This document shows, in pieces, positions 5,294 to 25,570 of a stretch of DNA of 47,005 bases. Origin of the DNA: a virus. Positions within the stretch are counted from its first letter, which is position 1, and each line of letters opens with the position of its first letter. The notes beneath the pieces were generated by a model that saw only the letters and a program-made list of their open reading frames with translations, was not told where the DNA came from and made no database searches. The DNA lies in the IMG/VR virus record IMGVR_UViG_3300046488_000035, positions 1 through 47,005 of that record. One strand, written 5' to 3'. Position numbers and translations under genes: made by a program.

Positions 5294-5503
5294 ATGATAG
5301 TTAAAATAGCACCGCTTGGTGAGAGGGTAGTTGAAGTAAATGTTGAAGCTGGAGTATCAATAGCTGATATATTAGCTATAGCAGAAGTTGATGTTAATGG
5401 TCGTAGCATAAGGTTGAACAATGTAGAGGTTGATGAGAGTGGTACTGTTAGTGCTGAAGGCTCAATCATTACATTGGTACAGAAGATGAAGGGTGGAAGG
5501 TAA
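5294..5503 (+). CDS. Ubiquitin-like beta-grasp protein with C-terminal GGR
   Basis: A 69-residue protein (MIVKIAPLGERVVEVNVEAG at the start) with the size and strand/helix order of the ThiS/MoaD/ubiquitin fold. Two N-terminal strands, a helix (VSIADILAIA), the strand DVNGRSIRLNN, and the final strand IITLVQKMKGGR can be seen. The end Gly-Gly-Arg is the key point. After removal of Arg, for example by the JAB peptidase encoded 1.1 kb downstream, the exposed Gly-Gly could be adenylated by the E1 protein (7496-8158) and passed to the E2-like protein (5598-6590). ATAAGGAG precedes the start. A sulfur-carrier role (ThiS/CysO-like) is the alternative, but the E2-like neighbour favours protein conjugation. 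Confidence 0.8.
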   Translation: MIVKIAPLGERVVEVNVEAGVSIADILAIAEVDVNGRSIRLNNVEVDESGTVSAEGSIITLVQKMKGGR

Positions 5504-5517
5504 GATACAATGATAAT

Positions 5518-5574
5518 AGCAGGTGGTAGTGTAGGTAGGCGGATAAGGCATATGCACCTATGCTATCACCTGCT
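5518..5574 (+). promoter_or_regulatory. 18-bp intercistronic RNA hairpin between Ubl and E2 genes
   Basis: The arm 5518-5535 pairs with 5557-5574 over 18 bp. At the DNA level three positions mismatch, but in RNA all three become G-U pairs. The loop is 21 bases. It lies 14 bases after the Ubl stop and 23 bases before the E2 start. There is no following T-run, so it looks like an RNA-stability or processing element rather than a terminator. Confidence 0.55.
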
Positions 5575-5597
5575 GTATCAAACAAGGGAGTGGGTAG

Positions 5598-6590
5598 ATG
5601 ACTGTTGAAGAGTTAGATAAGATGTATAAGGGTAAGTTAGTAGAGTTGATTGGTGCTTCATATGGTTGGGGTAGTACTTCAGTTGGGGATAAGTTGACAG
5701 TAAGTCATGTAGATATGAGTGGTAACTTATGTTTGATAGATGTTAGATGGGATTATGGTACATTAGTATTTGCACCTAAAGACGTAAAGATAGTAGATGG
5801 TAAGATAGGTATAGTATCAAATGAGAAGGTAGAGAGGTATATTGAGTTCTTTAGTAAACGTACACAGTTGTGGGTGGGTAAGAGAGAGCAATTGATAAAT
5901 GATATAAAAACACACGAGAATGCACTGTATACAATAGCTGAAGAGATGAGTTCAGTAAATACATTGATTAAATCAGCTATTGGTAAGCAATCAAGCATGG
6001 ATAGACAGAAGATATATAATCTGTTTGAGGGTATTAAACTCAAGTATAGTGATATAAGGTTTGCTGGTTGTGCTATCATTGCTACTACATCACCTATTAA
6101 GATGGTGTTCAAGGATAACAATGATAAGACAGTTGAGGTGGATATGGGAGTGTATGAGATTACACTTGATATAACCAAAGGTATGACATTTGCACATGTA
6201 GAGGGTGGATACAAGAGGGATTGTAGTGAGATACATCCGCATATACCAAGTAATGGTAAGCCTTGTTGGGGTACATGGAGTAAGGATATATGCAAGTGTC
6301 ATGGAGAGCAGGATTATATTGGTGAGTTGAGATTAGCACATGAGTTTCTATCTACTTGTGATAGTGGTGGGTGGTATATAAGTGGATATGCATTTGCGAA
6401 GGATAATGGGGATAGGTGTAGGGATTGTTGGGAGTTGGATTATGTATGCGATTGTGATAGATGCAGTAATTGTGATAGACCAACAGATGATTGTGCTTGT
6501 CATGTATGCCCTGATACAGATGAGAGATTCAGTGATGATTCATATTGCAATGGTTGCTCAAGCTATACAGAAGATGGTTGTAATTACTAA
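5598..6590 (+). CDS. E2-like (UBC-fold) conjugating protein with Cys-rich, RING-like C terminus
   Basis: A 330-residue protein. Residues 1-65 look like a small SH3/KOW-type barrel and 75-145 are helical. Residues about 150-260 hold the E2 signature: strands VYEITLDITKG, then H213-P-H-I-P-S-N-G-K-P-C223-W. This has the same spacing as the HPN-I-x-SNG-xx-C active site of eukaryotic ubiquitin-conjugating enzymes, so C223 is the predicted thioester cysteine. A helix (GELRLAHEFL) follows, as in the UBC fold. Residues 274-328 contain 12 cysteines (CxxC pairs at 274/277, 289/292, 301/304, 317/320), which could bind zinc like a RING or other treble clef. The N-terminal SD is AAGGGAG. It would accept Ubl from the E1 and attach it to targets; the E3-like role of the tail is inferred. 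Confidence 0.75.
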   Translation: MTVEELDKMYKGKLVELIGASYGWGSTSVGDKLTVSHVDMSGNLCLIDVRWDYGTLVFAPKDVKIVDGKIGIVSNEKVERYIEFFSKRTQLWVGKREQLINDIKTHENALYTIAEEMSSVNTLIKSAIGKQSSMDRQKIYNLFEGIKLKYSDIRFAGCAIIATTSPIKMVFKDNNDKTVEVDMGVYEITLDITKGMTFAHVEGGYKRDCSEIHPHIPSNGKPCWGTWSKDICKCHGEQDYIGELRLAHEFLSTCDSGGWYISGYAFAKDNGDRCRDCWELDYVCDCDRCSNCDRPTDDCACHVCPDTDERFSDDSYCNGCSSYTEDGCNY

Positions 6591-6607
6591 ACATAAGGGG
6601 GTGGTAA

Positions 6608-7471
6608 ATGTTAGTTTCAATAGGTAGTGGAGTGGAGAAGGTAGAGACATCAGCTGTGCATTACATAAGCATACCAGCACAGTTATATGCTGACTTATGT
6701 GAGTTTGTAGACCACTATGATACAGAGGTGAGTGGGTGTGGTATGGTAGAACGCATAGAACATAGGACAAAGGCAAAGGATAAAGATGACCCAGATACAG
6801 TGGAGATTGAGTTCCGCATATCTGAAGTGTATCTACCAGGTAAGCAAGAGAATACTGGGTCATCTACAGATATCACTGATGATGTGATAGCTGAATTGAT
6901 GAGTGAGTTATTGGCTAAAGGTGAGGATACTGAACATTTGAGATTGCATTGGCACTCTCATGCTGATATGGATACATTCCACAGTGGCACAGATGAGGAT
7001 AATTATGCTACATTATCAAATGGAGAGTTCCTTGTGTCATTGGTAATCAATAAGGCACATAAGTTTCTAGGGAGAGTTGATTACTTTAAGCCAGTGAGAG
7101 TTACATTGACTGGTGTGGCTACATACATGAGGATTGATAATGAGTATAAGCCAAGTGATGAGGCATTGAAGAGTATCAAGGTGTTGGATAAGTATACGAA
7201 GGATAAGCCGAAGGTTACATATGTTAGTGAGGCATATCAACAGGAGTATAGTGGATTTGGGTTTGATGGGAATATGTATGGTAAGCAGGAGAGAGTTACA
7301 TACAATGCAGAGTTAGACCCAGATGAGATAGAGGTAGCGAGGCAGTTGGACATTAACATAGCACAAGCTAAAGCATTTAAGGGGTGTATGGAAGTGAATA
7401 AATGCTATTGTTGCAAGTTTGTGGTAGAGTGTGAAGAGTTTAAGTACTTGACTGGGAACTATGATTGTTAA
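6608..7471 (+). CDS. JAB/JAMM metallopeptidase (deubiquitinase-like)
   Basis: A 287-residue protein. The JAMM zinc site is complete: E48 (in CGMVERI), H116-S-H118, seven residues, S126-G-T-D129. In characterised families such enzymes remove residues after Gly-Gly or cleave Ubl-target bonds. Here the enzyme could mature the GGR end of the Ubl and remove Ubl from conjugates. Residues about 150-260 extend beyond the usual Prok-JAB length, and the C terminus has five cysteines (KCYCCKFVVECEEF and the final C), possibly a second metal site. AAGGGGGTGGTAA precedes the ATG. It is encoded between the E2 and the E1, all close together and on one strand. Confidence 0.88.
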   Translation: MLVSIGSGVEKVETSAVHYISIPAQLYADLCEFVDHYDTEVSGCGMVERIEHRTKAKDKDDPDTVEIEFRISEVYLPGKQENTGSSTDITDDVIAELMSELLAKGEDTEHLRLHWHSHADMDTFHSGTDEDNYATLSNGEFLVSLVINKAHKFLGRVDYFKPVRVTLTGVATYMRIDNEYKPSDEALKSIKVLDKYTKDKPKVTYVSEAYQQEYSGFGFDGNMYGKQERVTYNAELDPDEIEVARQLDINIAQAKAFKGCMEVNKCYCCKFVVECEEFKYLTGNYDC

Positions 7472-7495
7472 ACATATACATAAGGGGGTGGTGCA

Positions 7496-8158
7496 ATGGA
7501 TTTGACAAGACAGGCTGACTTGGTTAGTAGTAAGATATTTGATACTCCCATCACTGTTATTGGTGGTGGGGGTATCGGGTCATTCGTGGTATTGGCATTG
7601 GCTAAAATGGGGTTTGCTGATATTACTGTATATGATGATGATACAGTAGAGGAACATAATATACCTAATCAGTTTTATCCATTGGATAGTTTAGGCAGAC
7701 CCAAAGTTGAAGAATTAAAAGCTATAGTACATATGTTTGCAGGCTCTGGTATAAACACATTTGCCCATAGATGGGATAAGTCTATGGCATTTACTCCTGG
7801 TGTAGTCATATCAGCAGTTGATACAATGAAGGTAAGAAGTGAGATATACCATGCTATCAATGCTACAAGGAACATATTCATAGATGGTAGAATGGGTGGA
7901 CATCAGTTAGAGGTACACACTTGCATAATGGGTGATAAGAATGATATGAAGATGTATAAGAGGACATTATGGAAGGATAGTGAGACATCTGTATTGCCAT
8001 GTACACAGAAGGCTGTGATGTATAATGTGCTGATGATAGCATCTCTTATAGCTAATCAATGCAGGTTGACATTAGAACATAAGAAGTATAATAGAGAGAT
8101 TATCTATGACTTTGAAACTGGGTCAATGCTGTCATCTAATGAGTGTATGGTGGTATAA
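7496..8158 (+). CDS. E1-like (ThiF family) adenylyltransferase
   Basis: A 220-residue minimal E1. The Rossmann nucleotide loop is GGGGIGS (23-29). The acidic strand end YDDD (46-49), the VEEHNIPNQF segment, GRPK (67-70, ATP contacts) and ISAVD (105-109) are in the order of ThiF/MoeB enzymes. C169 in VLPCTQ is the likely catalytic cysteine. No CxxC zinc pairs are visible, unlike MoeB. The reaction would be ATP-dependent adenylation of the Ubl C-terminal Gly, then thioester formation. The SD is AAGGGGGTGG, the same as for the JAB gene. It completes the Ubl-E2-JAB-E1 set. Confidence 0.88.
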   Translation: MDLTRQADLVSSKIFDTPITVIGGGGIGSFVVLALAKMGFADITVYDDDTVEEHNIPNQFYPLDSLGRPKVEELKAIVHMFAGSGINTFAHRWDKSMAFTPGVVISAVDTMKVRSEIYHAINATRNIFIDGRMGGHQLEVHTCIMGDKNDMKMYKRTLWKDSETSVLPCTQKAVMYNVLMIASLIANQCRLTLEHKKYNREIIYDFETGSMLSSNECMVV

Positions 8159-8847: not shown

Positions 8848-9065
8848 TAAAAGAACATATCGATGCTACAGTTGAGAATATGAAGGTCAATGGGGAGTAT
8901 TGGGCACAGATAAGGCTGTATATAAACAAGACATCATCAATGGAAATGGCTTACATACAAGGGTTTGTTGATGCTTATGAGACATTGAAGACATATATTT
9001 TGTACCATAAACTTGACAAACCAGCGACGAGGTGTTATACTAAGAGAAAGGCACATAAGAAATGA
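8844..9065 (+). CDS. Small protein, unknown
   Basis: A 73-residue protein (MIKEHIDATVENMKVNGEYW at the start), ending in a basic tail (CYTKRKAHKK). It is coupled by ATGA overlaps to both neighbours. Its last 50 bases also carry the consensus promoter for the downstream radical-SAM gene (9013-9041). Confidence 0.5.
   Translation: MIKEHIDATVENMKVNGEYWAQIRLYINKTSSMEMAYIQGFVDAYETLKTYILYHKLDKPATRCYTKRKAHKK
9013..9041 (+). promoter_or_regulatory. Consensus sigma70 promoter
   Basis: TTGACA (9013-9018), 17-base spacer, TATACT (9036-9041). The expected start is near 9048, about 14 bases before the ATG of the radical-SAM gene, so the transcript would have a very short leader. Confidence 0.75.
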
Positions 9066-10231
9066 GCGAATCATACCTGAGGCAACAACCACAAAAGTAT
9101 TTAATGGATGGATGTAAGATTTTTTGGCACCAGGATAAACTTGAGGACTTCCTGCGTGGTTATCGTATATCTCCTGTAACCATTGACATGGGGATTGCTA
9201 AATCGTGTAATATTCATTGCGTTTATTGTTATGGCATAAAACAAGGCAAGTCATCTGAATACATACCACTTGATAGATTGCTTATGCTAGCTGATGACGC
9301 ACGTGATTGTGGCGTGAGGTCTATTGCTATCATTGGTGATGGTGAGCCTACTATGAATAAAGGGTTGTATCCATTTGTTGAGGCACTTAAGAAAAATGGT
9401 GTGCAGAGTGCTGTTGCTACAAATGGATTGTTGCTTAATGAGTATCAGATAGAATGCTTAGTAAGTACTTGTACATGGGTGAGGTTTAACATATCAGGTG
9501 TATCTAACTATGACTGGGTAATGGGAGCACCTAAAGGGTCATTGGCTAAGTTTGAGGATATTGTACTCACAGCTGTACAGTATGCTAGCTTATATGGATG
9601 CACTATAGGACTACAGATGGTGCTTATACCAGAGTGCTTTGAGGAGATTATACCATTAGCTAAGAAAGCTGTGGAATGGGGAGTTGATTATCTGGTCATT
9701 AAACAGTTCTCTGATGGTGGTGAGGGAATGCCTATGCATCTACATACGGATTATGATAAGGCACGTGAGGCTTTACATACAGCTGAAGGGATGAGTAATG
9801 AGAAGACTAAGATTATTCCCAAATGGAATGCCCTTAGCGATACAGTGGCTATTACTAGGGATAAACATTGGGGGTTTGATAGGTGTATCGATTTACCTTT
9901 TCTGTTCCAAATCTCTGGAAATGGAGAGTGCTATCCGTGCGGTTATCTTTTTGGCAATCCTGAGTATTGCTACGGCAATGTGCGAGAGCAAAGGTTGGCT
10001 GACATTCTCAAGTCGGAGAGGTACTGGGAGATAGTGGATAAAGTGGGGAATACACCGTTGGAACAGTTGTGCAAAGGACAATGCAGGCACTGTGAGGGTC
10101 TTAAGTTTATGGATAAGCTTAATAAGATATATACGGGAGATTTACATAAGGCATTGGTTGAGATGTGTGGTTCGGAGGAGCAGTATGAGAAGTTGATGAG
10201 GAATCCACCGGAACATAGGGAGTTTATATAA
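9062..10231 (+). CDS. Radical SAM protein with SPASM-like C-terminal domain
   Basis: A 389-residue enzyme. The CxxxCxxC motif (C49, C53, C56; KSCNIHCVYCYG) binds the 4Fe-4S cluster that cleaves S-adenosylmethionine. The GDGEPTM strand follows at the expected place. The C-terminal third carries many cysteines (GECYPCGYLFGNPEYC and CKGQCRHCEG), as in SPASM/twitch domains that hold further clusters and act on peptides or other substrates. ATG 9062 overlaps the previous stop and has its own promoter 20 bases upstream. The substrate is unknown. The genes 12279-13703 and 13568-14443 are two more members of the superfamily. Confidence 0.9.
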   Translation: MSESYLRQQPQKYLMDGCKIFWHQDKLEDFLRGYRISPVTIDMGIAKSCNIHCVYCYGIKQGKSSEYIPLDRLLMLADDARDCGVRSIAIIGDGEPTMNKGLYPFVEALKKNGVQSAVATNGLLLNEYQIECLVSTCTWVRFNISGVSNYDWVMGAPKGSLAKFEDIVLTAVQYASLYGCTIGLQMVLIPECFEEIIPLAKKAVEWGVDYLVIKQFSDGGEGMPMHLHTDYDKAREALHTAEGMSNEKTKIIPKWNALSDTVAITRDKHWGFDRCIDLPFLFQISGNGECYPCGYLFGNPEYCYGNVREQRLADILKSERYWEIVDKVGNTPLEQLCKGQCRHCEGLKFMDKLNKIYTGDLHKALVEMCGSEEQYEKLMRNPPEHREFI

Positions 10232-10272
10232 AGATTACAACCCATAACCACAACATAACAAGGGAGGGGAGT

Positions 10273-10431
10273 ATGGAAGATAGTGTTTTTGTTGAATGGG
10301 TTGAGGGTTTGAGTGAAATTAACGCTAAAAGGTGTTGCGCTTTTTTATGTATTATAGCTTTTTGTCGAGCTAATGATTTAAACCCCTGGGAAATTATAAT
10401 GTGTTATTTTCAACAATTATTAGATGTTTAA
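10273..10431 (+). CDS. 52-residue protein, unknown
   Basis: MEDSVFVEWVEGLSEINAKR starts the product, with a hydrophobic Cys-rich middle (CCAFLCIIAFC). GGGAGGGGAGT is a strong ribosome-binding site. It could be a small membrane protein with one short segment. Not recognised. Confidence 0.5.
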   Translation: MEDSVFVEWVEGLSEINAKRCCAFLCIIAFCRANDLNPWEIIMCYFQQLLDV

Positions 10432-10521
10432 CATAATGGCGGGGCTGTGGTATGGCTACAGGGAAAAATAGTAGGAAAGCAACTGTACCCAGCCTCGCCT
10501 AAACAGGAAGGGGATGAGGGG

Positions 10522-10716
10522 ATGAAGCAAGTTTTAGAAGGATGGATAGTATCAGATGGAACGGTAAGTTTTGAGGAAAGCATTAAGGATGGATTTTGCT
10601 TTTATGTTAAAGCGCCTTATTATACGGCGGCAAATTCCACACATGTCCAAAAAGTCCGCATCGCTATAGAGAAGCTGACTACGCCCCCTGTAATGGGTGG
10701 AAAGGACTCTGCATGA
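10522..10716 (+). CDS. Small protein, unknown
   Basis: A 64-residue protein (MKQVLEGWIVSDGTVSFEES at the start). The start at 10522 is chosen because GGAAGGGGATGAGGGG stands directly upstream; an upstream in-frame GTG at 10447 has no comparable site. Beta-rich, single domain. It is coupled to the next gene by ATGA. Confidence 0.5.
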   Translation: MKQVLEGWIVSDGTVSFEESIKDGFCFYVKAPYYTAANSTHVQKVRIAIEKLTTPPVMGGKDSA

Positions 10717-11210
10717 CCCCACAACCTAAAATGAAAAAAGGGAGGAGGAATGGGAAGTGTAAGTATTTGCGTCATAAAACAATTTTAGATGAATGGGGAA
10801 AGCATGAAGAAGAATGGTGTAAAATTTTTAAGCAATTTCTTGTCATGCAAACCTGTTCGGGATGTCCAGACTACGAGGAGGAAAAGATAATGTCTAATCC
10901 CAGAGAAGATGATTTGCGGGAGGCGGTTGAACAGCTTGAGATTAGTAGTGAACACATAAAAAACAACGGAAGAAAGTTTGGATTAAATGAATATGAGAAG
11001 GATTTGTTAAAAGCTATCCAAGTTGTTATTGCTGAACTCACCCGCCTCAAGGACGAACTTGCCAGGGTGAAGGGGGAGATACGCCAAGCCTGTAATGTTC
11101 TCGGCGGTCCAGTTGCGGGATATGCCCCAGAAGTGGCTATGCAAGAATACGAGAATAGGATTGTTGTGGCAACGGGGATATTGATACCATTACTCACAGG
11201 CGATAAATAA
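10713..11210 (+). CDS. Protein with Cys-containing N terminus and long helices, unknown
   Basis: A 165-residue protein (MTPQPKMKKGRRNGKCKYLR at the start). Three further cysteines (C35 or nearby in EEWCKIF, then TCSGCPDYEEE) could form a small zinc site in the first 60 residues. Residues 60-165 are charged and helical, with a likely coiled coil (ITHL-type spacing around ELTRLKDELARVKGEI). Alternatively two phage gene pieces have fused here, since a good internal start (MSNPREDDLREAVEQL, behind AGGAGGAAAAGATA) lies at 10890. Confidence 0.5.
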   Translation: MTPQPKMKKGRRNGKCKYLRHKTILDEWGKHEEEWCKIFKQFLVMQTCSGCPDYEEEKIMSNPREDDLREAVEQLEISSEHIKNNGRKFGLNEYEKDLLKAIQVVIAELTRLKDELARVKGEIRQACNVLGGPVAGYAPEVAMQEYENRIVVATGILIPLLTGDK

Positions 11211-11245
11211 CCCTCGCCTCATTGGTAATGTGAAAGGAGAAGGGG

Positions 11246-11452
11246 ATGAATTGCATGAAATGTGGTAAAACGTTTCAAAGCGCTACTAATGGAGATACGA
11301 TTTGTCAAGAATGTAAAAATGGAAATGCTTTCCAACCTACTGGTGTAGGTGGTTTGATTGGTTGGATATGTCCTGTATGCGGTGCGGGATTATCGCCTTA
11401 CACGGCACGGTGTTCATGTCAGGGTTATCAACCAATGAAAGTAACTTGTTAA
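11246..11452 (+). CDS. Small double zinc-ribbon protein
   Basis: A 68-residue protein. CxxC pairs at CMKC...CQEC and CPVC...CSC form two probable zinc ribbons. AAAGGAGAAGGGG precedes the ATG, and the next start follows the stop directly (TAAATG). Such small ribbon proteins are common in phage early regions and often bind nucleic acid or other proteins; a specific role is not visible. Confidence 0.6.
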   Translation: MNCMKCGKTFQSATNGDTICQECKNGNAFQPTGVGGLIGWICPVCGAGLSPYTARCSCQGYQPMKVTC

Positions 11453-11662
11453 ATGAAATACCTTCTTGCCCTCACTCTCCTTCTCTCCGGCTGCCACTCC
11501 ACAACCTGCCTATACCTGGAGGGCAAGCAGTTGATAGAGATATGCGATGATAGCACGACCAATGTGCTGGATTGCTCTGGGGAGAAATGCACAAGGACGA
11601 AGGTGGAGAGGACGGAAGGGATGAATAGGGAGTTTGATAACTGGGTGGGAAAGTTAAGATAA
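11453..11662 (+). CDS. Small lipoprotein
   Basis: A 69-residue protein starting MKYLLALTLLLSGC: a short lipoprotein signal peptide with an LSGC lipobox (cysteine at 14). It would be lipidated and membrane-anchored. The mature part is Cys-rich (CLYLEG, ICDDS, DCSGEKC). A second lipoprotein follows at 11987. Phage lipoproteins act in lysis (o-spanins) or superinfection exclusion; the small size and position in an early cluster fit exclusion, but this is inference. Confidence 0.65.
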   Translation: MKYLLALTLLLSGCHSTTCLYLEGKQLIEICDDSTTNVLDCSGEKCTRTKVERTEGMNREFDNWVGKLR

Positions 11663-11673
11663 GGGGGAATGCA

Positions 11674-11955
11674 ATGGAAAAAAGATCGTATTATTGCGAC
11701 AAATGTAATAAAGAAGTTGCTACAACGAAAGACTTAAAAACTATTACCATTGGCAACGGCGGAAGTTTTGATTCTTTCAGTTCGTATAACCGATTTGAGA
11801 TATACAAAAAGTTTGATTTATGTGAAGATTGCCAAAAGAAAGTCGGGGTTTTTATTCCAGTACCTTCTACTCAAGAACAAAGAATCTCAACCGCAGATAG
11901 ACTGTATGAAATTGTTGCAGAGATGATTGCAGAGTCACGGGAACAAGGGAGTTGA
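11674..11955 (+). CDS. Zinc-ribbon protein
   Basis: A 93-residue protein (MEKRSYYCDKCNKEVATTKD at the start). Two CxxC pairs (CDKC and, about 35 residues later, CEDC) form a zinc ribbon. The C-terminal part is a charged helix. GGGGGAATGCA precedes the start. Unknown role. Confidence 0.6.
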   Translation: MEKRSYYCDKCNKEVATTKDLKTITIGNGGSFDSFSSYNRFEIYKKFDLCEDCQKKVGVFIPVPSTQEQRISTADRLYEIVAEMIAESREQGS

Positions 11956-11986
11956 ACGCATGGCTGGACAAACTGGGAGGGGTGAG

Positions 11987-12181
11987 ATGAGGTATTGGGT
12001 TATTCTCTGTCTCCTCCTCTGTGGTTGCACAATAAGCAAGCCTGACGGACTTTATGTTAACTATAAACTGACGGTTAACAACGCAACAGTAGAACAGTTC
12101 TGCAAGGCAAAAGGAAGCGGGGATATAGTGGAATTGGTCAGAGGTGGGAAAGTGGTGTATAGCAAAGGAGTAAGGAAATGA
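11987..12181 (+). CDS. Small lipoprotein
   Basis: A 64-residue protein. The start at 11987 (MRYWVILCLLLCGCTISKPD) is set by GGGAGGGGTGAG and gives a lipoprotein signal with LCGC lipobox; the longer frame from 11927 would bury this signal. The mature part is a small beta-rich domain. It is coupled by ATGA to a 34-residue membrane peptide. The two lipoproteins and this peptide may form an envelope-modifying group. Confidence 0.65.
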   Translation: MRYWVILCLLLCGCTISKPDGLYVNYKLTVNNATVEQFCKAKGSGDIVELVRGGKVVYSKGVRK

Positions 12182-12282
12182 TTAGAACACTTATTATGTT
12201 TGGTGGTGTGGTGTTTTGGTGTTTTGCACTAATAGTTGTTGTAAGCATATTCATGTTTTTCTTAACAGAGGATGAGACATGA
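12178..12282 (+). CDS. 34-residue membrane peptide
   Basis: MIRTLIMFGGVVFWCFALIV starts the product; almost the whole chain is one transmembrane helix with a short acidic tail (TEDET). It overlaps both neighbours by ATGA (start at 12178, stop at 12280-12282), so it is firmly embedded in the coupled run. Function unknown. Confidence 0.6.
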   Translation: MIRTLIMFGGVVFWCFALIVVVSIFMFFLTEDET

Positions 12283-13703
12283 GGAAAGTAGTTTTGGTTG
12301 TACCTAACTTTAGATGGGTAGATAAAGACCCTAATGCACTATGGCACTATCTACCATATAACCTATGCCTATTAGCTGCTTGTATAAGAGATATAGCTGA
12401 TGTAGAGATTATTGATGCCTACAAACAGGACATGAGTCAATCTGACCTCAGGGTTGCTTTAGAGCAACGTAGTCCTGATATTGTAGGCATCACTGTTCTT
12501 ATGGATAAGTATGGGGCTAGTGGACATACAGTGGCTAGGATAGCTAAGGAAGCTTGTACACCAATGGTAGTCATGGGTGGGGTGTATGCATCTATGAATG
12601 CACAGCGTGTAATTGAGGACCCTAATGTGGATTATGTGGTTAAGGGTGAGGGAGAGTACGCATTTAGGGAATTGGTTAAGTGGGGTGTACAGAATGATAG
12701 CATAATACAAGCTACCCGTATCACTGACCTAGATAGCTTACCATTACCAGCATATGACCTTATACCATATGCTACATATGCTACAAGTGCTGAGAGGCAT
12801 TCGGTAGATAGGCCACCACTTATGCCTTATGGGAGAGTGCTCACATCAAGAGGGTGTCCATTTGGATGTTGCTTCTGCCAGGTGGAGCAGATATCGGGGA
12901 AAGAGTTTAGACCAAGGTCAGCTGAGTCAGTATTGTATGAGATAAGGTGGTTGAGAGATGTGTATGGTATACAATCGTTGATGTTTGATGATGATAATAT
13001 GCTCAATGACCAGACAAGGGCTAGGAAGATATTTAAGGGTATGATTGAGCAGAAGCTGGTTATGCCTTGGGTGATGATAGCTACTGCAGCTTTTAAGCTT
13101 GATAAGGATTTGATAGCACTTATGAAGGAGAGTGGGTGCGTGTATGTCAATGTGGCTATTGAGAGTGGTACGGAGAGAGTGCTACATAAGGTAATCAATA
13201 AACCTATTAACCTAGAACAAGCACATAAGGTAGTGAACATACTCAAGGAATATGGAATATATGTAGCTGCTAACTTCATCATTGGATTCCCTACAGAGAC
13301 TTGGGATGAGATACGGGAGACATTGGCATATGCTGATTACTTGAATGCTGATTATACCAAGGTGTTTGCTGCTATGCCTTTGAGGAATACAAGGCTGTGG
13401 GATATGTGTGAGAAGTATGGGGCATTCAAGAAAGGGTTCAAGGGAGATGTGGAGTGGGCTAGTGGGCAGATAGAGACTTCTGAGTTTAATGCTGATGATT
13501 TAACAATACTGAGGGCATATGAATGGGAACGTATCAACTTTTCCAATGCTGATAAGAGGAGGAAGACATGCAAGATGATGGGGATAACGGAACAGGAATT
13601 GCTCAAGATAAGAAGACAAACGATATCATCATCCCTGAGGAATACGGGTACATCGGGGTGTTCCTTACCTTCGCATGTCAGCTCAGATGCTCCTACTGCA
13701 TAA
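12279..13703 (+). CDS. B12-binding-domain radical SAM protein
   Basis: A 474-residue protein of the cobalamin-type radical SAM architecture. A Rossmann-like N-terminal domain (about 1-140, VVLVVPNF..., GITVLMDKYG, VVMGGVYAS) is followed by a radical SAM barrel with C193, C197, C200 (RGCPFGCCFC), FDDDN at the second conserved strand and GFPTET further on. The usual DxHxxG cobalamin motif is not obvious, so B12 may not be bound. The last 136 bases overlap the next radical SAM gene in another frame. It is coupled to the upstream membrane peptide by ATGA. Substrate unknown. Confidence 0.85.
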   Translation: MRKVVLVVPNFRWVDKDPNALWHYLPYNLCLLAACIRDIADVEIIDAYKQDMSQSDLRVALEQRSPDIVGITVLMDKYGASGHTVARIAKEACTPMVVMGGVYASMNAQRVIEDPNVDYVVKGEGEYAFRELVKWGVQNDSIIQATRITDLDSLPLPAYDLIPYATYATSAERHSVDRPPLMPYGRVLTSRGCPFGCCFCQVEQISGKEFRPRSAESVLYEIRWLRDVYGIQSLMFDDDNMLNDQTRARKIFKGMIEQKLVMPWVMIATAAFKLDKDLIALMKESGCVYVNVAIESGTERVLHKVINKPINLEQAHKVVNILKEYGIYVAANFIIGFPTETWDEIRETLAYADYLNADYTKVFAAMPLRNTRLWDMCEKYGAFKKGFKGDVEWASGQIETSEFNADDLTILRAYEWERINFSNADKRRKTCKMMGITEQELLKIRRQTISSSLRNTGTSGCSLPSHVSSDAPTA

Positions 13704-14443
13704 ACCATGAGGGTAAAGCACAACCAGCATATGCTACATTGACGGGGGCAGCATGGACCACGGCACTCAATCGTATCATTACCAAACCGGATAGACCTAT
13801 CACGTTGCAAGGTGGGGAGCCTACGATGCATAAGGACTTCTATCAGATAGTAAAGGGAATTAGACCGGATATAAGCATAGATTTATTGACTAATTGCCAA
13901 TTCAATGTTGAGGAATTTGCCAATGCTCTGCCCCCGTCAAGGCTACGAAGGGATGCACCGTATGCTTCTATAAGAGTCAGCTATCATCCAAGCACTATGA
14001 ACCTTGGGGATACGGTGGAGAGGGTGAGGTATTTAAAGGCTAAAGGGTATTCGATAGGTGTGTGGATAGTGGATTATCCTGGGGATAAGTTCATAAAGAT
14101 ATGCCAGCAATGCTTTAAGGATGAGGGTATTGACTGTAGATTAAAGGAGTATTTGGATGGTAAAGGATATGGAACGTATAAGTACACCGAGTATATGGGT
14201 AAAAAGAATATGCTATGCCGTCCTTCTGAGCTTATTGTTGCCCCTGATGGCACTATCCATAGGTGCCACGGTGATTTGTATAATAATAGACCTAGCATTG
14301 GGAATATTCAAGATGCTGATATACGGCTCAAGTTCGATTTTATGGAGTGTAAACGTGTGGCTTGTAATTCGTGTGATAGGAAGGTCAAGACAGACAGATT
14401 CCAGGTAGGCGGGCATTGTGCGGTGGAAATAAAACAGCCTTGA
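13568..14443 (+). CDS. Radical SAM protein, short SPASM-like type
   Basis: A 291-residue enzyme. The cluster motif is C37, C41, C44 (FACQLRCSYCINHE), and the SAM-binding GGEPTM follows. The C-terminal part has the SPASM-like series MLCRP, IHRCHGDL, ECKRVACNSC and GHC. The start at 13568 lies inside the previous gene, giving a 136-base overlap; no later start fits before the cluster motif. Two convergent copies of the dispersed GC-rich motif lie inside the gene (13739-13752 and 13928-13939), translated LTGAA and LPPSR. The last codons carry the next promoter. Confidence 0.85.
   Translation: MQDDGDNGTGIAQDKKTNDIIIPEEYGYIGVFLTFACQLRCSYCINHEGKAQPAYATLTGAAWTTALNRIITKPDRPITLQGGEPTMHKDFYQIVKGIRPDISIDLLTNCQFNVEEFANALPPSRLRRDAPYASIRVSYHPSTMNLGDTVERVRYLKAKGYSIGVWIVDYPGDKFIKICQQCFKDEGIDCRLKEYLDGKGYGTYKYTEYMGKKNMLCRPSELIVAPDGTIHRCHGDLYNNRPSIGNIQDADIRLKFDFMECKRVACNSCDRKVKTDRFQVGGHCAVEIKQP
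13739..13752 (+). repeat. Dispersed GC-rich motif, copy 6
   Basis: TTGACGGGGGCAGC inside the radical SAM gene, translated LTGAA; convergent with copy 7, 175 bases further on. Confidence 0.85.
13928..13939 (-). repeat. Dispersed GC-rich motif, copy 7
   Basis: CTGCCCCCGTCA, inverted, translated LPPS in the same gene as copy 6. Confidence 0.85.
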
Positions 14444-16350: not shown

Positions 16351-16625
16351 TGACGGACAGAATGCTACAAAGCGCAAGAAGTGGTAAGAAACGTGCAGGA
16401 CAAGGTGACTTGATACACCATCTGCAGGGAAAGAAGCTTACACAGAGGCAAGCAATTAAAGCTAAGTGCTATGATTGCAATGGGATGGGTGAACTGGATA
16501 CATGTGATATTACAATATGCCCCCTATATCCATACTCACCTTACACTAGAAATATGCCAGGACACGCTCCAGCTAAGCAATGCGGGCCTAGAAAGGGCAT
16601 TGTACATGAACATCCAAGAGCTTAG
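16350..16625 (+). CDS. Small phage zinc-finger-like protein
   Basis: A 91-residue protein with the pattern AIKAKCYDCNG, about ten residues, CDITICPLYPY. Many phages encode this AIRAKC-x-x-C...CP-L-x-P-Y family, whose role is not established. A further C in KQCGPRKG may complete a metal site. It is coupled upstream by TAATG and overlaps the next gene by 20 bases. Confidence 0.7.
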   Translation: MTDRMLQSARSGKKRAGQGDLIHHLQGKKLTQRQAIKAKCYDCNGMGELDTCDITICPLYPYSPYTRNMPGHAPAKQCGPRKGIVHEHPRA

Positions 16626-17196
16626 AGACTTTGAGAAAGAGATAGCTACTCTATTTGAGCAAGGCAAGATACGTTGCCCCATACATCTCAGCTCAGGTAA
16701 TGAACAACAACTGCTAGATATCTTTAAGAAGATATACTCACGTGATTATGTATTCTCTACACACCGTAATCATCTACATTACCTACTCCATACTGATGAT
16801 GTAGAAGGACTTAGAGCAAAGATACTGCTAGGGGATTCGATGCATACCTGCTCACCTGAGGACCACTTCTACTCTAGCTCTATAGTAGCTGGGTGTGTAG
16901 CTATAGCTGCAGGTGTAGCATATGCTCTTAAGCTTAAGGAGAGTGCTAAGAAGGTGTATTGCTTTATAGGTGATGGTGCGGTAGATGAGGGGTGGTTCCA
17001 AGAAGCTGTGAAATATGCTACAACACAGGACTTACCAATAACATACATCATTGAGCATAACAACAGGTCTGTGTGTTCAACTGTAGCACAAAGGTGGGGT
17101 ATGGACTTCAACTACCCTTCAAACCCTAAGATTATGCAGTATAACTATACCTGTGGTTATCCTCATGCTGGCATTGGCAAATTTGTGGAGTTCTGA
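16606..17196 (+). CDS. Thiamine-diphosphate enzyme, E1-alpha-like subunit (ThDP/Mg domain)
   Basis: A 196-residue protein equivalent to the ThDP-binding subunit of 2-oxo acid dehydrogenase E1 or the transketolase N domain. It shows PIHLSSGNE, FSTHRNHLHYLL, GSM-like GDSMH, and the ThDP/Mg motif GDG (about 121-123), 27 residues, NN. The start at 16606 (MNIQELRDFEKEI) is chosen because upstream codons overlap the zinc-finger gene; AGAAAGGG is the SD. It is coupled to the beta-like subunit by TGATG. It is shorter than a standard E1-alpha (about 330), keeping only the core domain. Substrate unknown; similar split enzymes occur in sugar-biosynthesis clusters. Confidence 0.85.
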   Translation: MNIQELRDFEKEIATLFEQGKIRCPIHLSSGNEQQLLDIFKKIYSRDYVFSTHRNHLHYLLHTDDVEGLRAKILLGDSMHTCSPEDHFYSSSIVAGCVAIAAGVAYALKLKESAKKVYCFIGDGAVDEGWFQEAVKYATTQDLPITYIIEHNNRSVCSTVAQRWGMDFNYPSNPKIMQYNYTCGYPHAGIGKFVEF

Positions 17197-17738
17197 TGAC
17201 ATACAAAGACCAGTTGATACAAACCATGACAGATGTTGCTAAAAACGAACAGGTGCGCTTCTTAGGCTACAATGTAGCATATGGGCATCAATTCAATGGC
17301 ACACTTGTTAACATAGCAAAGAGTCAGTTATTTGAAATGCCGGTCGCCGAGAACCTCATTGTTGGGGTGGCTATTGGTATGGCTATGGAGGGGTTCATAC
17401 CTGTGGTGTGTATAGAACGTATGGATTTCTTATGGGCATGTGCTGATGCTATCATCAATCATATGGATAAGGCTAAGCAATTGGGATGGGGTAATCTGAA
17501 GGTTATCATACGGGCATGTGTAGGTGGTACCAAGCCATTGAGCTCTGGGTGCCAGCATACAGGGGATTATGTCAAGACCTTCAAATCCCTGTTGGCTGCC
17601 CCCGTCATGGCGATTAAGCGGGTAGAGGATATTGATAGAATATGGACTAAAGCTGTAGCACTTGATGGGCCTTGTATGATAGTGGAGTATAAAGATTTAT
17701 ATCCCACCCTTTCCACGGTGGCAATTAAAACTACTTAA
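17196..17738 (+). CDS. Thiamine-diphosphate enzyme, E1-beta-like subunit (Pyr domain)
   Basis: A 180-residue protein equal to the pyrimidine-binding domain of transketolase/E1-beta. It shows NVAYGHQF, then PVAENLIVGVAIGMAMEGFIPVV with the conserved glutamate that activates the cofactor, FLWACADAIINHMDKA and HTGDYVKTFKSL. The C-terminal transketolase domain is missing, so the pair 16606/17196 is a minimal two-domain enzyme. An inverted copy of the dispersed motif at 17595-17607 is translated LAAPVMA. The gene is followed by a 260-base structured, gene-free stretch. Confidence 0.83.
   Translation: MTYKDQLIQTMTDVAKNEQVRFLGYNVAYGHQFNGTLVNIAKSQLFEMPVAENLIVGVAIGMAMEGFIPVVCIERMDFLWACADAIINHMDKAKQLGWGNLKVIIRACVGGTKPLSSGCQHTGDYVKTFKSLLAAPVMAIKRVEDIDRIWTKAVALDGPCMIVEYKDLYPTLSTVAIKTT
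17595..17607 (-). repeat. Dispersed GC-rich motif, copy 8
   Basis: GCTGCCCCCGTCA inside the E1-beta-like gene, translated AAPVM. Confidence 0.85.
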
Positions 17739-20649: not shown

Positions 20650-21102
20650 ATGACAAGCACTGAGATTAGCGAGTTAGCAAAGACATATGCTGATGCTATA
20701 CTAACCAACCAGATAACAAGAGCTGAGGTGGTGATGTTACTGGCTTGTATTACAATAAGGATTAACCAGGCAATACTGATAGGGCTAGGAACCCCGTCTG
20801 TGGCTGCCCCCGTCAAAGCGGGTGATGTAGCAAAGGAATGGAAACCTGGTGTTAAGATAGCAGATAAAGGTTATCCCTGTGTATGCGTCATGTGTGCGAA
20901 ACATATCTACACAGTCAATAAAGATGTATACGACAACACAGTAGTCAAGGATTTCATTGAGTCATATACGCCGATGCCAGGGTTCCCAGTTATGACTAGG
21001 CAAATGAAGATAAGCAACATTGAGAATAATATAACCACCAACTGTCCCTCTTGCGGGGGAGAGCTAACTCTCTACCTAGCAGGGAGGCAGATAAGTGGCT
21101 AA
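20650..21102 (+). CDS. Protein with zinc-ribbon C terminus, unknown
   Basis: A 150-residue protein (MTSTEISELAKTYADAILTN at the start). The N-terminal half is helical. Then comes a linker with an inverted copy of the dispersed motif (PSVAAPVKAG). The C-terminal half has C-V-C-V-M-C and, about 45 residues later, CPSC, likely one zinc site. TAAGGAGCAACA precedes the ATG. It overlaps the polymerase gene by 8 bases. A replication-associated role is inferred from position. Confidence 0.55.
   Translation: MTSTEISELAKTYADAILTNQITRAEVVMLLACITIRINQAILIGLGTPSVAAPVKAGDVAKEWKPGVKIADKGYPCVCVMCAKHIYTVNKDVYDNTVVKDFIESYTPMPGFPVMTRQMKISNIENNITTNCPSCGGELTLYLAGRQISG
20803..20815 (-). repeat. Dispersed GC-rich motif, copy 10
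   Basis: GCTGCCCCCGTCA, translated AAPVK in the zinc-ribbon protein; convergent with copy 9. Confidence 0.85.
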
Positions 21103-23389
21103 ACGAGTTGAGGCACTCAAACCAAGCGAGGTGTTCAATGGCATTATGCTCATCGGGGAGGCACCAGGGGAGACAGAAGAAAAGCACGGAGTACCTTTTG
21201 TGGGACAAGCTGGAATGGTTCTTGATGGAATGCTTGAGGAGTGTGGAATTGAAAGGAAATCATGTTACATCACAAACCTTGTCAAAGAACGCCCGGTCGC
21301 TAACAACTTCAATTCTGTTGACAAAGAGAGCCTCGCAAAGTATAAAGCGGAACTTCAAGAAGAGATATCCATCGTCCAGCCTAACATCATTGTTGCAATG
21401 GGCGAACATGCGCTTGAAGCAATTACAGGGCTTAAAGGCATTACCAACTGGCGTGGGTCAGTGCTTGGGAGAACTGGCACAAAGGTCATTCCCACAATAC
21501 ATCCAGCAGCAATATTACGTGAGTGGAAGTTCCGTCCCATGTGCGTGTGTGACTTACACAAAGCAAAGCAAGAGTCCGGATACCCTGGTATCAGAGTTCT
21601 TCAACGGAACATCATCATCCACCCAAGCTTCACCAACGTTTGTGCCTTTCTCGACGGCATACTACGGCAGAAGCAAACGTGTGCATTCGATATCGAAACC
21701 GAAACAAGCCAAATCTCATGTATCGCCTTCGCCACGTCGCCTCAAGAGTCAATGTGCATACCTTTTTGGTTCGGGGCATCGGGGTCTATCTACAGCGAAA
21801 AAGATGAACTCGAAATCTGGTGGAAGATCAAAGAGGTCCTTGAGAACCCAGAGATAAAGAAGATAGCACAGAACGCACAGTATGATATGACTATACTCAG
21901 AGATAAGTATCATATCAATGTCAAGGGTTTGTGGCTTGATACAATGATAGCATTCCACTCGATATACCCTGAGCTTCCTAAGTCATTAGCATTTCTCACT
22001 TCTATATATACTGATGTACCGTATTATAAGTATTATAGAACAACCAATAATATGGATGACTTCTTCAGGTATAATGCTACTGATGCTATAGTCACCTATG
22101 AATGTGCTATGAAGATATACAAGGAAATGGAAGAAGCTCATGTCGTGGATTTCTATTACGAGCATATGCATTCTCTTATACTGCCTCTTATGGATATTTG
22201 CAATCGCGGTGTACGTATTGATACGGCTGGTAAGAAGGTTGCTATTGCGGAAGTTAACAAGTGCTTAGAAGGAAAGCAACAACACCTTAATACACTTGTT
22301 GGTCACGAACTTAACGTCAACTCCCCCAAGCAAATGAAGGAGTGGTTGTATAAGGAACTAAAGCTCAAGCCGAAGTATAAGCTACGCAAAGCAAGTGGCG
22401 AGAAGACCGTTGCTGCTGATGAGGAAGCACTTGTGGACTTATACGCTGAGACACAATTGGAAGCATTGAAGGTGATACTCGATATCCGTGGGGCACGGAA
22501 ACTGCTGTCTACTTATTTGGAGGTTACGTATGACAAGGTTGAAGGTCTGGAAAGGGCACGAACGTCGTACCTCATCACGGGGACGGAGACTGGAAGACTG
22601 TCCTCAAGAGAAACTGTATATGGTACTGGAACCAATATGCAGAACATACCTAAGGGAATTGTTAGACGCATTTTTATTCCTGACGAGGGCAAAGTCTTCC
22701 TCAATGCGGACTTTTCTCAAGCAGAGGCAAGGGTTGTTGCGTGGCTTGCAGGAGAAGATAGACTTATCCAAATATTCAAAGACGGAGGCGATATACATCG
22801 TAGAAATGCTGCAAAGATTTACCGCAAAGCAGAAGCAGATGTTACTAAAGCGGAAAGAGAAATCGCGAAAAGGATAATACATGCCAGTAACTATGGTATG
22901 GGTCCAGTCACGTTTAGCAAGAACGCAGGTATACCAGTAGCGGAAGCTAAGAGATTGCTCAATGCTTACTTCGCTGAGTTCCCGCGTATCAAGTTATGGC
23001 ACATGGCTATCCAGCGTGACCTGCGCAATTCACGTACTTTGACTACACCACTGGGTAGGAAGCGTACCTTCTTCAACAGGTGGAATGAATCATTGGTCAA
23101 GGAGGCTTTAGCATTCATACCACAAAGCACAGTAGCTGACCTGCTTAACATGGGATTGAGGAGATTGTATGCCAAGTATAATGGGAGTGCTGTTGAAATA
23201 CTACTCCAAATACACGATGCGGTTCTGCTTCAGGTACCTGTTTTGGATGTTGCAGTTGTGGCTGAGGACGTGCGGAGAATGCTTACAATTCCTATTCAAA
23301 TAAACCATAAGGAATTAGTGATACCTGTTGACATCAGCGTCGGACAAACGTGGGATAGCTTGAAGAAATATGAGGTTGACAAAGCGTAG
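21095..23389 (+). CDS. Uracil-DNA glycosylase / DNA polymerase I fusion
   Basis: A 764-residue fusion. Residues about 15-170 are a family-4-type uracil-DNA glycosylase (IGEAPGETE at 20-28, PFVGQAG, TNLVKERP, PTIHPAA). Residues about 190-350 are a 3'-5' exonuclease (FDIETET, then IAQNAQYDMTIL, NATDAIVTYE). The rest is a family A polymerase: motif A ADFSQAEAR near 535, the O helix AKRIIHASNYGMG near 590 (Tyr at the dideoxy-selectivity position), and motif C LQIHDAVLL near 703. In motif C the usual HDE is HDA; the metal-binding Asp is kept. GTG 21095 is the annotated start (GTGGCTAAACGAG), behind GGGAGGCAGATAA. It is the phage replicase. Confidence 0.92.
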   Translation: MAKRVEALKPSEVFNGIMLIGEAPGETEEKHGVPFVGQAGMVLDGMLEECGIERKSCYITNLVKERPVANNFNSVDKESLAKYKAELQEEISIVQPNIIVAMGEHALEAITGLKGITNWRGSVLGRTGTKVIPTIHPAAILREWKFRPMCVCDLHKAKQESGYPGIRVLQRNIIIHPSFTNVCAFLDGILRQKQTCAFDIETETSQISCIAFATSPQESMCIPFWFGASGSIYSEKDELEIWWKIKEVLENPEIKKIAQNAQYDMTILRDKYHINVKGLWLDTMIAFHSIYPELPKSLAFLTSIYTDVPYYKYYRTTNNMDDFFRYNATDAIVTYECAMKIYKEMEEAHVVDFYYEHMHSLILPLMDICNRGVRIDTAGKKVAIAEVNKCLEGKQQHLNTLVGHELNVNSPKQMKEWLYKELKLKPKYKLRKASGEKTVAADEEALVDLYAETQLEALKVILDIRGARKLLSTYLEVTYDKVEGLERARTSYLITGTETGRLSSRETVYGTGTNMQNIPKGIVRRIFIPDEGKVFLNADFSQAEARVVAWLAGEDRLIQIFKDGGDIHRRNAAKIYRKAEADVTKAEREIAKRIIHASNYGMGPVTFSKNAGIPVAEAKRLLNAYFAEFPRIKLWHMAIQRDLRNSRTLTTPLGRKRTFFNRWNESLVKEALAFIPQSTVADLLNMGLRRLYAKYNGSAVEILLQIHDAVLLQVPVLDVAVVAEDVRRMLTIPIQINHKELVIPVDISVGQTWDSLKKYEVDKA

Positions 23390-24544: not shown

Positions 24545-25570
24545 TTATATTAGCTTCAATGCTCTGAGCTTATGCATCTTCTCCGCAGTATCCTTACCGA
24601 TGTCACATCGATACTGCAGTCCTTCTATGCTGAGGTTAGAGATAGTACGATACACCCTTCTCTGCGCTTCTTGTGGTGTCTTACCACGAGCAGTCACGTA
24701 TCCGGCATTACCACTCAAAGCACCGCATACTAACTTCTCATCCACCTTGGACACATCTGCTTGCCACATGTGCTTTTGGTTAGCAGAGTTGAGCCCAAGT
24801 ATCTCTAACGGTATTGTAGGTTTTGCATGAGGATATGGATAAACGCTGAGCATCACACCCGCTACATACGGGTCTAACGCTTCGACGGGGGCAGCAGCAG
24901 GATCGAACATGGCAAGTATCAAATCAGCCTTATTCTTCCTAGTGTTCTCATATACAGCATTGGTATAAGGCAGGTTTATGTTGGCACTCACGGACTCACC
25001 ATACACATCACCTTTGCTGTCCACTACTACATTGATAGAGAAGCACCCTCGATGGTTTGCCTTGCGCAGGAACTTTTCCACAGGTGTGAGGACTGATTCC
25101 ACAAGCTTTGATGCACTGAAGTATGCCACATACCCTGCGCACTCCACATCAACACCCACATCCCCTGCCATCATCTTGGTGTAGTTGAATACGAGGAACT
25201 TGGATATGAACTTGTTGCCATTGAACCAGGCACAGACAGTAGCTCTTGTGGCTGCCCCCGTCAATGCTGGTACTGCTTTCAACCCAATAGCAGCAAGTAA
25301 TTGTTTATTATACTCCTGGTTATCCTCCAGCAGATTGGACCACTTCGTCGGCCCAAGAACCTTGGTACCATGGGCACGCACCCATTCTGCAGGTACGATA
25401 TGACTTGTATCGTCGAAACACACAAAGTCTGGTTGGGCTTCCAAGAACTGGCTTTCTACGCTTCTTAGGTCCGTTGGTTGTAGACATACCTTTACCGAGT
25501 GCCCTTCTTGGGTTAGATGCTGTGCTATACCAAGACCACCGCCTGTGTTACTGAATAGTATGACTCGCAT
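24545..25570 (-). CDS. ATP-grasp protein, phosphoribosylamine-glycine-ligase (PurD)-like
   Basis: A 341-residue protein with the PurD layout. N-terminal Rossmann segment MRVILFSNTGGGLGIAQHL, LGPTKWSNLLEDN (GP-x-K-x-A-x-LE-like), an ATP-grasp core (KFISKFLVFNYTKMMAGDVG), and a C-terminal domain with VMLSVYPYP and ALSGNAGYVTARGKTPQEAQ as in GARS enzymes. The catalytic region is divergent, so purine synthesis itself is uncertain; it may ligate another amine or amino acid. Two convergent copies of the dispersed motif fall inside (24883-24895 as AAAPVEA, 25251-25263 as ALTGAAT). Location within the virion operon is unexpected. Confidence 0.75.
   Translation of the reverse strand: MRVILFSNTGGGLGIAQHLTQEGHSVKVCLQPTDLRSVESQFLEAQPDFVCFDDTSHIVPAEWVRAHGTKVLGPTKWSNLLEDNQEYNKQLLAAIGLKAVPALTGAATRATVCAWFNGNKFISKFLVFNYTKMMAGDVGVDVECAGYVAYFSASKLVESVLTPVEKFLRKANHRGCFSINVVVDSKGDVYGESVSANINLPYTNAVYENTRKNKADLILAMFDPAAAPVEALDPYVAGVMLSVYPYPHAKPTIPLEILGLNSANQKHMWQADVSKVDEKLVCGALSGNAGYVTARGKTPQEAQRRVYRTISNLSIEGLQYRCDIGKDTAEKMHKLRALKLI
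24883..24895 (+). repeat. Dispersed GC-rich motif, copy 12
   Basis: CGACGGGGGCAGC in the ATP-grasp gene; convergent with copy 13, about 355 bases on. Confidence 0.8.
25251..25263 (-). repeat. Dispersed GC-rich motif, copy 13
   Basis: GCTGCCCCCGTCA with GCATT on the outer side, translated LTGAA. Confidence 0.85.

Follow-up and report, generated by a model that had tools for sequence, protein, structure and literature searches.

What is known of ubiquitin-like protein conjugation in prokaryotes comes mainly from cellular biochemistry and from anti-phage immunity. Bacterial operons combining an activating enzyme (E1), a conjugating enzyme (E2), a JAB peptidase and a ubiquitin-like protein (Ubl) were described in 2006 by Iyer and colleagues, and Ubl and JAB domains of phages were described in tail assembly only (PMC1779556). 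Here, we analyze IMG/VR virus record IMGVR_UViG_3300046488_000035, whose full 47,005 bases form the window, and in which four adjacent plus-strand genes encode a Ubl, an E2-like protein, a JAB/JAMM metallopeptidase and a minimal ThiF-type E1. We consider it probable that these genes constitute a complete, phage-owned pathway for ubiquitin-like conjugation and deconjugation. That the phage encodes every part of such a pathway had been proposed in a sequence-only reading of the window, and is now well supported by both predicted structures and their folds, by the catalytic residues and their conservation, by lasting linkage of the four genes across dozens of divergent lineages, and by purifying selection. 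We found no description of a phage-encoded E1-E2-Ubl pathway in the open PMC literature, preprints and most subscription journals being outside the scope of this search. If the proposal is correct, bacterial viruses operate protein tagging on their own behalf.

The Bil system (BilABCD) likewise has a Ubl, an E2, a JAB and an E1 as four separate, adjoining genes. Its BilA contains two Ubl domains, BilD combines an inactive and an active adenylation half, and BilB carries a CEHH motif (PMC11354881). In the window, by contrast, the Ubl is a single domain of 69 residues, the E1 (220 residues) has one ThiF domain, and the Glu, His and His of CEHH at positions +6, +8 and +13 from the Cys correspond to Lys, Ile and Gly after C223 of the E2. 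PRTRC-type operons and the type 6d operons of Iyer also keep Ubl, E2, JAB and ThiF-like genes separate; in type 6d, the E2 lacks the His before the Cys, and the operon contains a fifth, alpha-helical gene (Iyer 2006, PMC1779556). The PRTRC models score far under their curated cut-offs in the window (ThiF, 44.7 versus 144.75 bits; A, 13.6 versus 101.8 bits), and neither B nor C is among the matches listed. CBASS Cap2/Cap3, 6A-MBL and Bub resemble the window set in their E1, E2 and JAB chemistry, but the PADLOC E1-E2 models match only the Rossmann part of the window E1, and neither an E1-E2 fusion, as in Cap2-type systems, nor a multidomain E1 is seen in the window, where E1 and E2 are separate proteins. 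Membership in Bil, PRTRC, Bub or Cap2 was rejected, as each fails in at least one of the defining features tested. The kinship to Bil and PRTRC cassettes drawn in the sequence-only reading holds as a likeness of general kind, and does not extend to the defining features of either. Among archaeal systems, SAMP2/UbaA is similar in that SAMP2 is the closest solved Ubl relative by profile and the E1 is of the ThiF type; to our knowledge the SAMP system has no E2, which the window set has. The lambda-type tail genes K and I (TAPK/TAPI) also place a JAB and a Ubl-like domain in a phage, but they are tail assembly genes without E1 or E2 (PMC1779556), whereas the window set lies in the early arm and includes both enzymes.

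Terminase, portal, capsid and DNA polymerase genes are present in the record. The minus strand (right and far-left parts) encodes terminase subunits, portal, major head protein, tail proteins and endolysin, while the plus-strand arm, from ~4 kb, encodes a DNA polymerase, a primase/helicase-like ATPase and a Sak4-like annealing protein. The set lies just within this plus-strand arm with the coordinates first assigned to it, and the open reading frames (ORFs) of all four genes are open and preceded by a Shine-Dalgarno-like sequence: AAGGAGTGG (Ubl), AAGGGAGTGG (E2), AAGGGGGTGG (JAB) and AAGGGGGTGG (E1). At ~4 kb, the point of divergence of the two gene arms, GC skew changes sign (-0.08 before, +0.36 after); this is consistent with the earlier suggestion that the set lies next to an origin, and goes no further than that. 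No match to a tyrosine or serine integrase domain was obtained in the record, which is possibly incomplete, and lysogeny is therefore unsupported. This bears on the idea that the set is a Bil-like weapon against competing phages, tagging the virion proteins of others in superinfection exclusion. Bacteria are reported to conjugate Ubls to hinder phage assembly (Hor et al. 2024, as cited in PMC13373217), but besides the unsupported lysogeny, the CEHH residues of BilB are absent and many lineages have the set surrounded by replication genes, so that we regard superinfection exclusion as very unlikely.

The linkage of the four genes was evaluated by two scans of viral contigs. The scan led by the window E1 yielded 11 contigs, most of which carry Ubl, E2, JAB and E1 together. 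The scan led by the JAB profile yielded 176 matching stretches, and in most of the 80 that were kept, the Ubl, E2 and E1 profiles, which had not been used in the search, match beside the JAB. We further reduced the collected loci to 50 lineages at <70% E1 identity (L numbers below), a few of which are named phages and Methylomirabilota, and found the complete four-gene set in 39 of them. Since the JAB-led search recovers the other three genes adjoining in dozens of contigs, the cluster is not due to chance, and together with the lineage survey these 176 stretches rule out a one-off event. The gene orders seen include Ubl-E2-JAB-E1, E2-JAB-E1-Ubl and Ubl-E1-JAB-E2, among others, and the lasting association under changing order argues for a joint function. 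All four genes are under purifying selection, with a ratio of non-synonymous to synonymous substitutions (dN/dS) of ~0.1–0.25 in most close pairs. Recurrent neighbours of the set are genes for helicase, primase/helicase, single-stranded DNA-binding protein and DNA polymerase. The presence of the set in dozens of distantly related phages suggests that ubiquitin-like tagging is used by phages and not by cells alone.

The Ubl (5294–5503, plus strand) is a 69-residue beta-grasp modifier. Its AlphaFold model (predicted local distance difference test, pLDDT, 88.7) has the element order E-E-H-E-E-E of a beta-grasp fold and a loose tail, and Foldseek aligns it with Mth1743 (E 1.6e-4), NEDD8, ubiquitin and SUMO (the four at E 1.6e-4 to 1e-3), which bears out the fold first proposed for this gene; BubA is also among the structures that align with the model. 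Scans with the Pfam, NCBIfam and PADLOC models gave no match. When compared with the PDB, a family profile of 40 relatives matches SAMP2 best, at full length (E 6.8e-6), followed by ThiS and others.

The Ubl ends in K66-G67-G68-R69 (5489–5500, plus strand), and conservation in the 40 Ubls together with a pattern count predicts a cut after G68. The only columns kept at 90% or more in the 40 Ubls are A30, K66 and G67. At position 68, a simple pattern count over the lineages gives Asn 27, Ala 7, Gly 4 and Ser 1, and the residues past Lys-Gly-x are variable and often missing altogether. Thus, the GGR ending pointed out earlier is present in the window (KGG-R), but is not a hallmark of the family: the conserved core is Lys-Gly, the second Gly is peculiar to the clade of the window, and most relatives in the wider phage family end in K-G-N. 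In the window Ubl, a canonical GG would be expected once Arg69 is lost, while most phage Ubls would expose Asn unless the JAB cuts after Gly. Head-to-tail Ubls joined at the K-G-N/A point occur in L012, L037, L038, L040, L061 and L071.

The E2-like protein (330 residues; 5598–6590, plus strand) comprises, from its model and structure alignment, an N-terminal region, a long helix, a ubiquitin-conjugating (UBC) core and a Cys-rich tail. Delimited by VIA-align, the UBC core spans residues ~128–268 (5979–6401, plus strand; pLDDT mostly 70–95), and each of the 50 matches listed for the model is an E2 or an E2 complex (best Z 8.7, root-mean-square deviation 3.2 over 115 residues), as anticipated for this gene from its sequence. 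The active-site motif H213-P-H-I-P-S-N-G-K-P-C223-W-G (6234–6272, plus strand), defined by conservation in 32 E2s and by alignment with UBE2L3, agrees with the HPHI-PSNG-KPC pattern noted at the outset, with H213-P214-H215 preceding C223. Four residues are invariant across the 32 E2s: P214, C223, G225 and D255. The family profile aligns HPH..nGkaCL with HPNIDEKGQVCL of UBE2L3 at identical spacing, so that the catalytic Cys context HPN-x7-C appears as HPH-x7-C, with His in place of Asn and C223 invariant.

Twelve Cys are found in the final 65 residues of the window E2, and its Cys-rich tail (6408–6587, plus strand; direct sequence, low model confidence) is probably metal-binding. The spacing in this tail is unlike the cross-brace pattern, whereas the E2 tails of L006, L010 and L036 read C-x2-C-x(11-12)-C-x2-C-x4-C-x2-C-x(11-14)-C-x2-C, which is the spacing of cross-brace zinc fingers; cross-brace-like units occur several times over in the L036 tail, similar units in L037 and L104, and an irregular one in L070. 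The E2 family has no entry in the libraries searched: nothing in Pfam, NCBIfam or PHROG scored above cut-off, and a PADLOC scan gave nothing useful. When viral contigs were scanned with the window E2 as a single sequence, zero matches were returned because the protein is too divergent, and it was the JAB profile alone that gave access to the family; a search of named phage records with the L009 E2 also returned zero. Sets with two E2-like genes, some without the usual active-site motif, are seen in L040, L045, L060, L082 and L101.

The JAB/JAMM metallopeptidase (287 residues; 6608–7471, plus strand) was assigned from Pfam Prok-JAB (E 0.0017, under the curated cut-off), from the family profile against the PDB (RPN11, E 0.016), both weak but specific, and from its invariant ligands. 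The JAMM signature H116-S-H118-x7-S126-x2-D129 (6953–6994, plus strand), with E40 upstream, is read directly from the sequence and from the JAB alignment (A2), in which all metal ligands, E40, H116, H118, S126 and D129, are present and invariant. The sequence-only reading had named H116-S-H118, S126 and D129 correctly; its glutamate, E48, is to be replaced by E40 in TEVSG. In L012/L013 (6825–7971), two ORFs separated by ~250 bases together make up the JAB; the interruption falls at the HSH motif, and an intron or insertion is possible; in Flavobacterium phage Fpv1 (L002), the JAB is likewise in two parts, with an opposite-strand ORF between them. In a counter-defence role, the set would interfere with host Ubl immunity such as Bil or type II CBASS, for example by stripping host tags with the JAB, the natural enzyme for that purpose, or by using the Ubl and E2 as decoys, and the CBASS and Bil Ubl systems are anti-phage defences (PMC10097602, PMC13373217). 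Stripping, however, needs the JAB alone, whereas most lineages retain all four genes with the active sites of E1 and E2 intact, and the Ubl is single-domain and SAMP2-like, unlike the two-domain BilA; we judge counter-defence to be a distinctly improbable role.

The E1 (220 residues; 7496–8158, plus strand) is a single ThiF domain (Pfam, 3.8e-21), and its family profile matches PaaA, MccB, ThiF, UBA5, Uba1 and others in the PDB. Its nucleotide-binding loop GGGGIGS (residues 23–29; 7562–7582, plus strand) and candidate catalytic Cys, C169 (8000–8002, plus strand), both singled out in the sequence-only reading, are conserved in the E1 alignment (A1): G23, G25, G28 and S29 are invariant, as is C169 in the nine aligned E1 relatives, and a Cys aligns there in the E1s of crAss-like and Flavobacterium phages too.

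Among NCBIfam models, those for ThiF match the E1 best, and this, together with the SAMP2 and ThiS matches of the Ubl, brings in the main rival to conjugation, in which a cofactor, tRNA or Fe-S pathway would draw on the Ubl as a ThiS/MoaD/SAMP2-like thiocarboxylate donor, activated by the ThiF-type enzyme, with the E2-like protein as a non-conjugating partner. SAMP2-type proteins are capable of both sulfur-carrier and modifier jobs, and three radical SAM genes lie downstream of the set at 9062–14443. Radical SAM genes are, however, not among the recurring neighbours of the sets, where no rhodanese, ThiG or MoaE was noticed either; the E2 has the classical HP...G..C spacing with the Cys conserved across the family, and the Asn or Ala tail of most relatives does not fit a thiocarboxylated Gly. 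On balance, we find a sulfur-carrier system unlikely.

Returning to the conjugation pathway, we infer every reaction step from the named families: (i) the JAB would free the Ubl tail by trimming Arg69 or, in other phages, by cutting longer tails or Ubls repeated head to tail; (ii) the ThiF-type E1 would adenylate the Ubl and hold it as a thioester on C169; (iii) the Ubl would be handed to C223 of the E2; (iv) the E2, perhaps positioned by its Cys-rich tail, would attach the Ubl to protein substrates made early in infection; and (v) the JAB would take the Ubl off again. Because several phage groups have the set within their early or replication genes, the replication or takeover stage is the likeliest setting. 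The proposal makes several questions testable: what phages tag, whether a residue other than Gly can end a Ubl tail, and by what route the Ubl is transferred from a minimal ThiF-type E1 to an E2.

Several observations weigh against this pathway. First, the arginine of the N-x-x-R-Q motif is missing from the E1, in which an NIPNQ that is invariant in A1 aligns to N-x-x-R-Q of MccB, PaaA and ThiF, and with Asn in place of Arg the ATP chemistry may differ; this arginine is usual but not universal in the E1/ThiF superfamily, and membership of the domain follows from the ThiF match. Second, Foldseek alone found nothing significant with the E2 model, so that the E2 fold rests on VIA-align plus sequence, and the E2 profile is weak alone against eukaryotic E2s (E ~0.16), although it is E2s that keep recurring as matches there. 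Third, 11 of the 50 lineages have fewer parts, owing to contig ends or to a Ubl and E2 that are absent or diverged past the profiles (the parts wanting in L008 are in L043, on the same contig), and the E2 candidate of the L044–L059 group lacks the motif searched for. Finally, Xanthomonas phage PhiXhv-12 gave no match to the JAB profile, which is not proof of absence; its E2 (4e-6) is long, contains HPH...LCLG and is Cys-rich at the ends, and its candidate Ubl terminates in KASGG.

Other named phages with E1 relatives are Bacteroides crAss-like phages, Flavobacterium phages (Fpv1 and its kin) and Erwinia phage Ep032, and the E1s of named phages are mostly annotated as thiamine biosynthesis protein; cultured crAss-like, Flavobacterium and Xanthomonas phages are among the carriers. 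In the crAss-like and Fpv sets, the JAB adjoins the E1, and two upstream genes, weakly supported by profile, resemble E2 and Ubl by position and motif: H-S-H...C-x-G (E2), and K-S-G or S-S-G (Ubl). Against the family profiles, the crAss-like genes match weakly (E2, E 0.0075, with the active-site motif aligned; Ubl, 0.085), and they are candidates only, although their E1 groups with that of the window. Primase and uracil-DNA glycosylase genes lie near the crAss-like sets. JAB-E1 is followed directly by a reverse-transcriptase-like gene with a YADD motif in four related lineages, L028 (6888–8225), L091, L098 and L108, in which the candidate for the E2 has diverged strongly.

Among genomes, Methylomirabilota have the nearest E1s (41–44% identity), and an E1 of the window type occurs in 16 of the 95 Methylomirabilota genomes searched. 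The Methylomirabilota contigs carry E2, E1, Ubl and sometimes JAB amid ordinary chromosomal genes, and the chromosomal E2-(JAB)-E1-Ubl operons of L110, L111 and L118–L124 represent an uncharacterised cellular system. GG, as RGG or KGG, closes their Ubls or is followed by a few more residues. The E1 tree places the window in a clade with L005 (100/97), joined by Methylomirabilota (99/96) and then by the crAss/Flavobacterium phages (96/83); the tree is midpoint-rooted, and the rooting is uninformative on the direction of transfer.

A broader reading, which we put forward tentatively and with more doubt than conviction, is that phages own a large Ubl conjugation family in which the Ubl activated by most members has Lys-Gly-Asn at its end rather than Gly, some carry a cross-brace (RING/PHD/FYVE-spaced) zinc finger on the E2 as a built-in E3, and the clade of the window keeps GG. 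The Asn looks retained rather than trimmed, because conservation stops at it, later residues vary, and head-to-tail Ubls join there. MccB, an E1-type enzyme, acts on a C-terminal Asn, and is among the closest solved E1 relatives by profile, the match spanning the Rossmann part only.

Several other genes of the window are of note. The three radical SAM genes downstream of the set are on the plus strand; one has a SPASM match and one a B12-binding domain. At 16471–17738, each of two adjoining genes resembles one half of a thiamine-diphosphate dehydrogenase E1/transketolase (PF00676, PF02779), which is unusual for a phage, and at one end of the late arm (24545–25570, minus strand) a gene matches the GARS C-domain (PF02843), a domain of the purine-synthesis type. 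The DNA polymerase I-like protein encoded at 21095–23389 has an N-terminus that resembles uracil-DNA glycosylase (GEAPG...GVPFVGQAG), the enzyme encoded beside the set in crAss-like phages.

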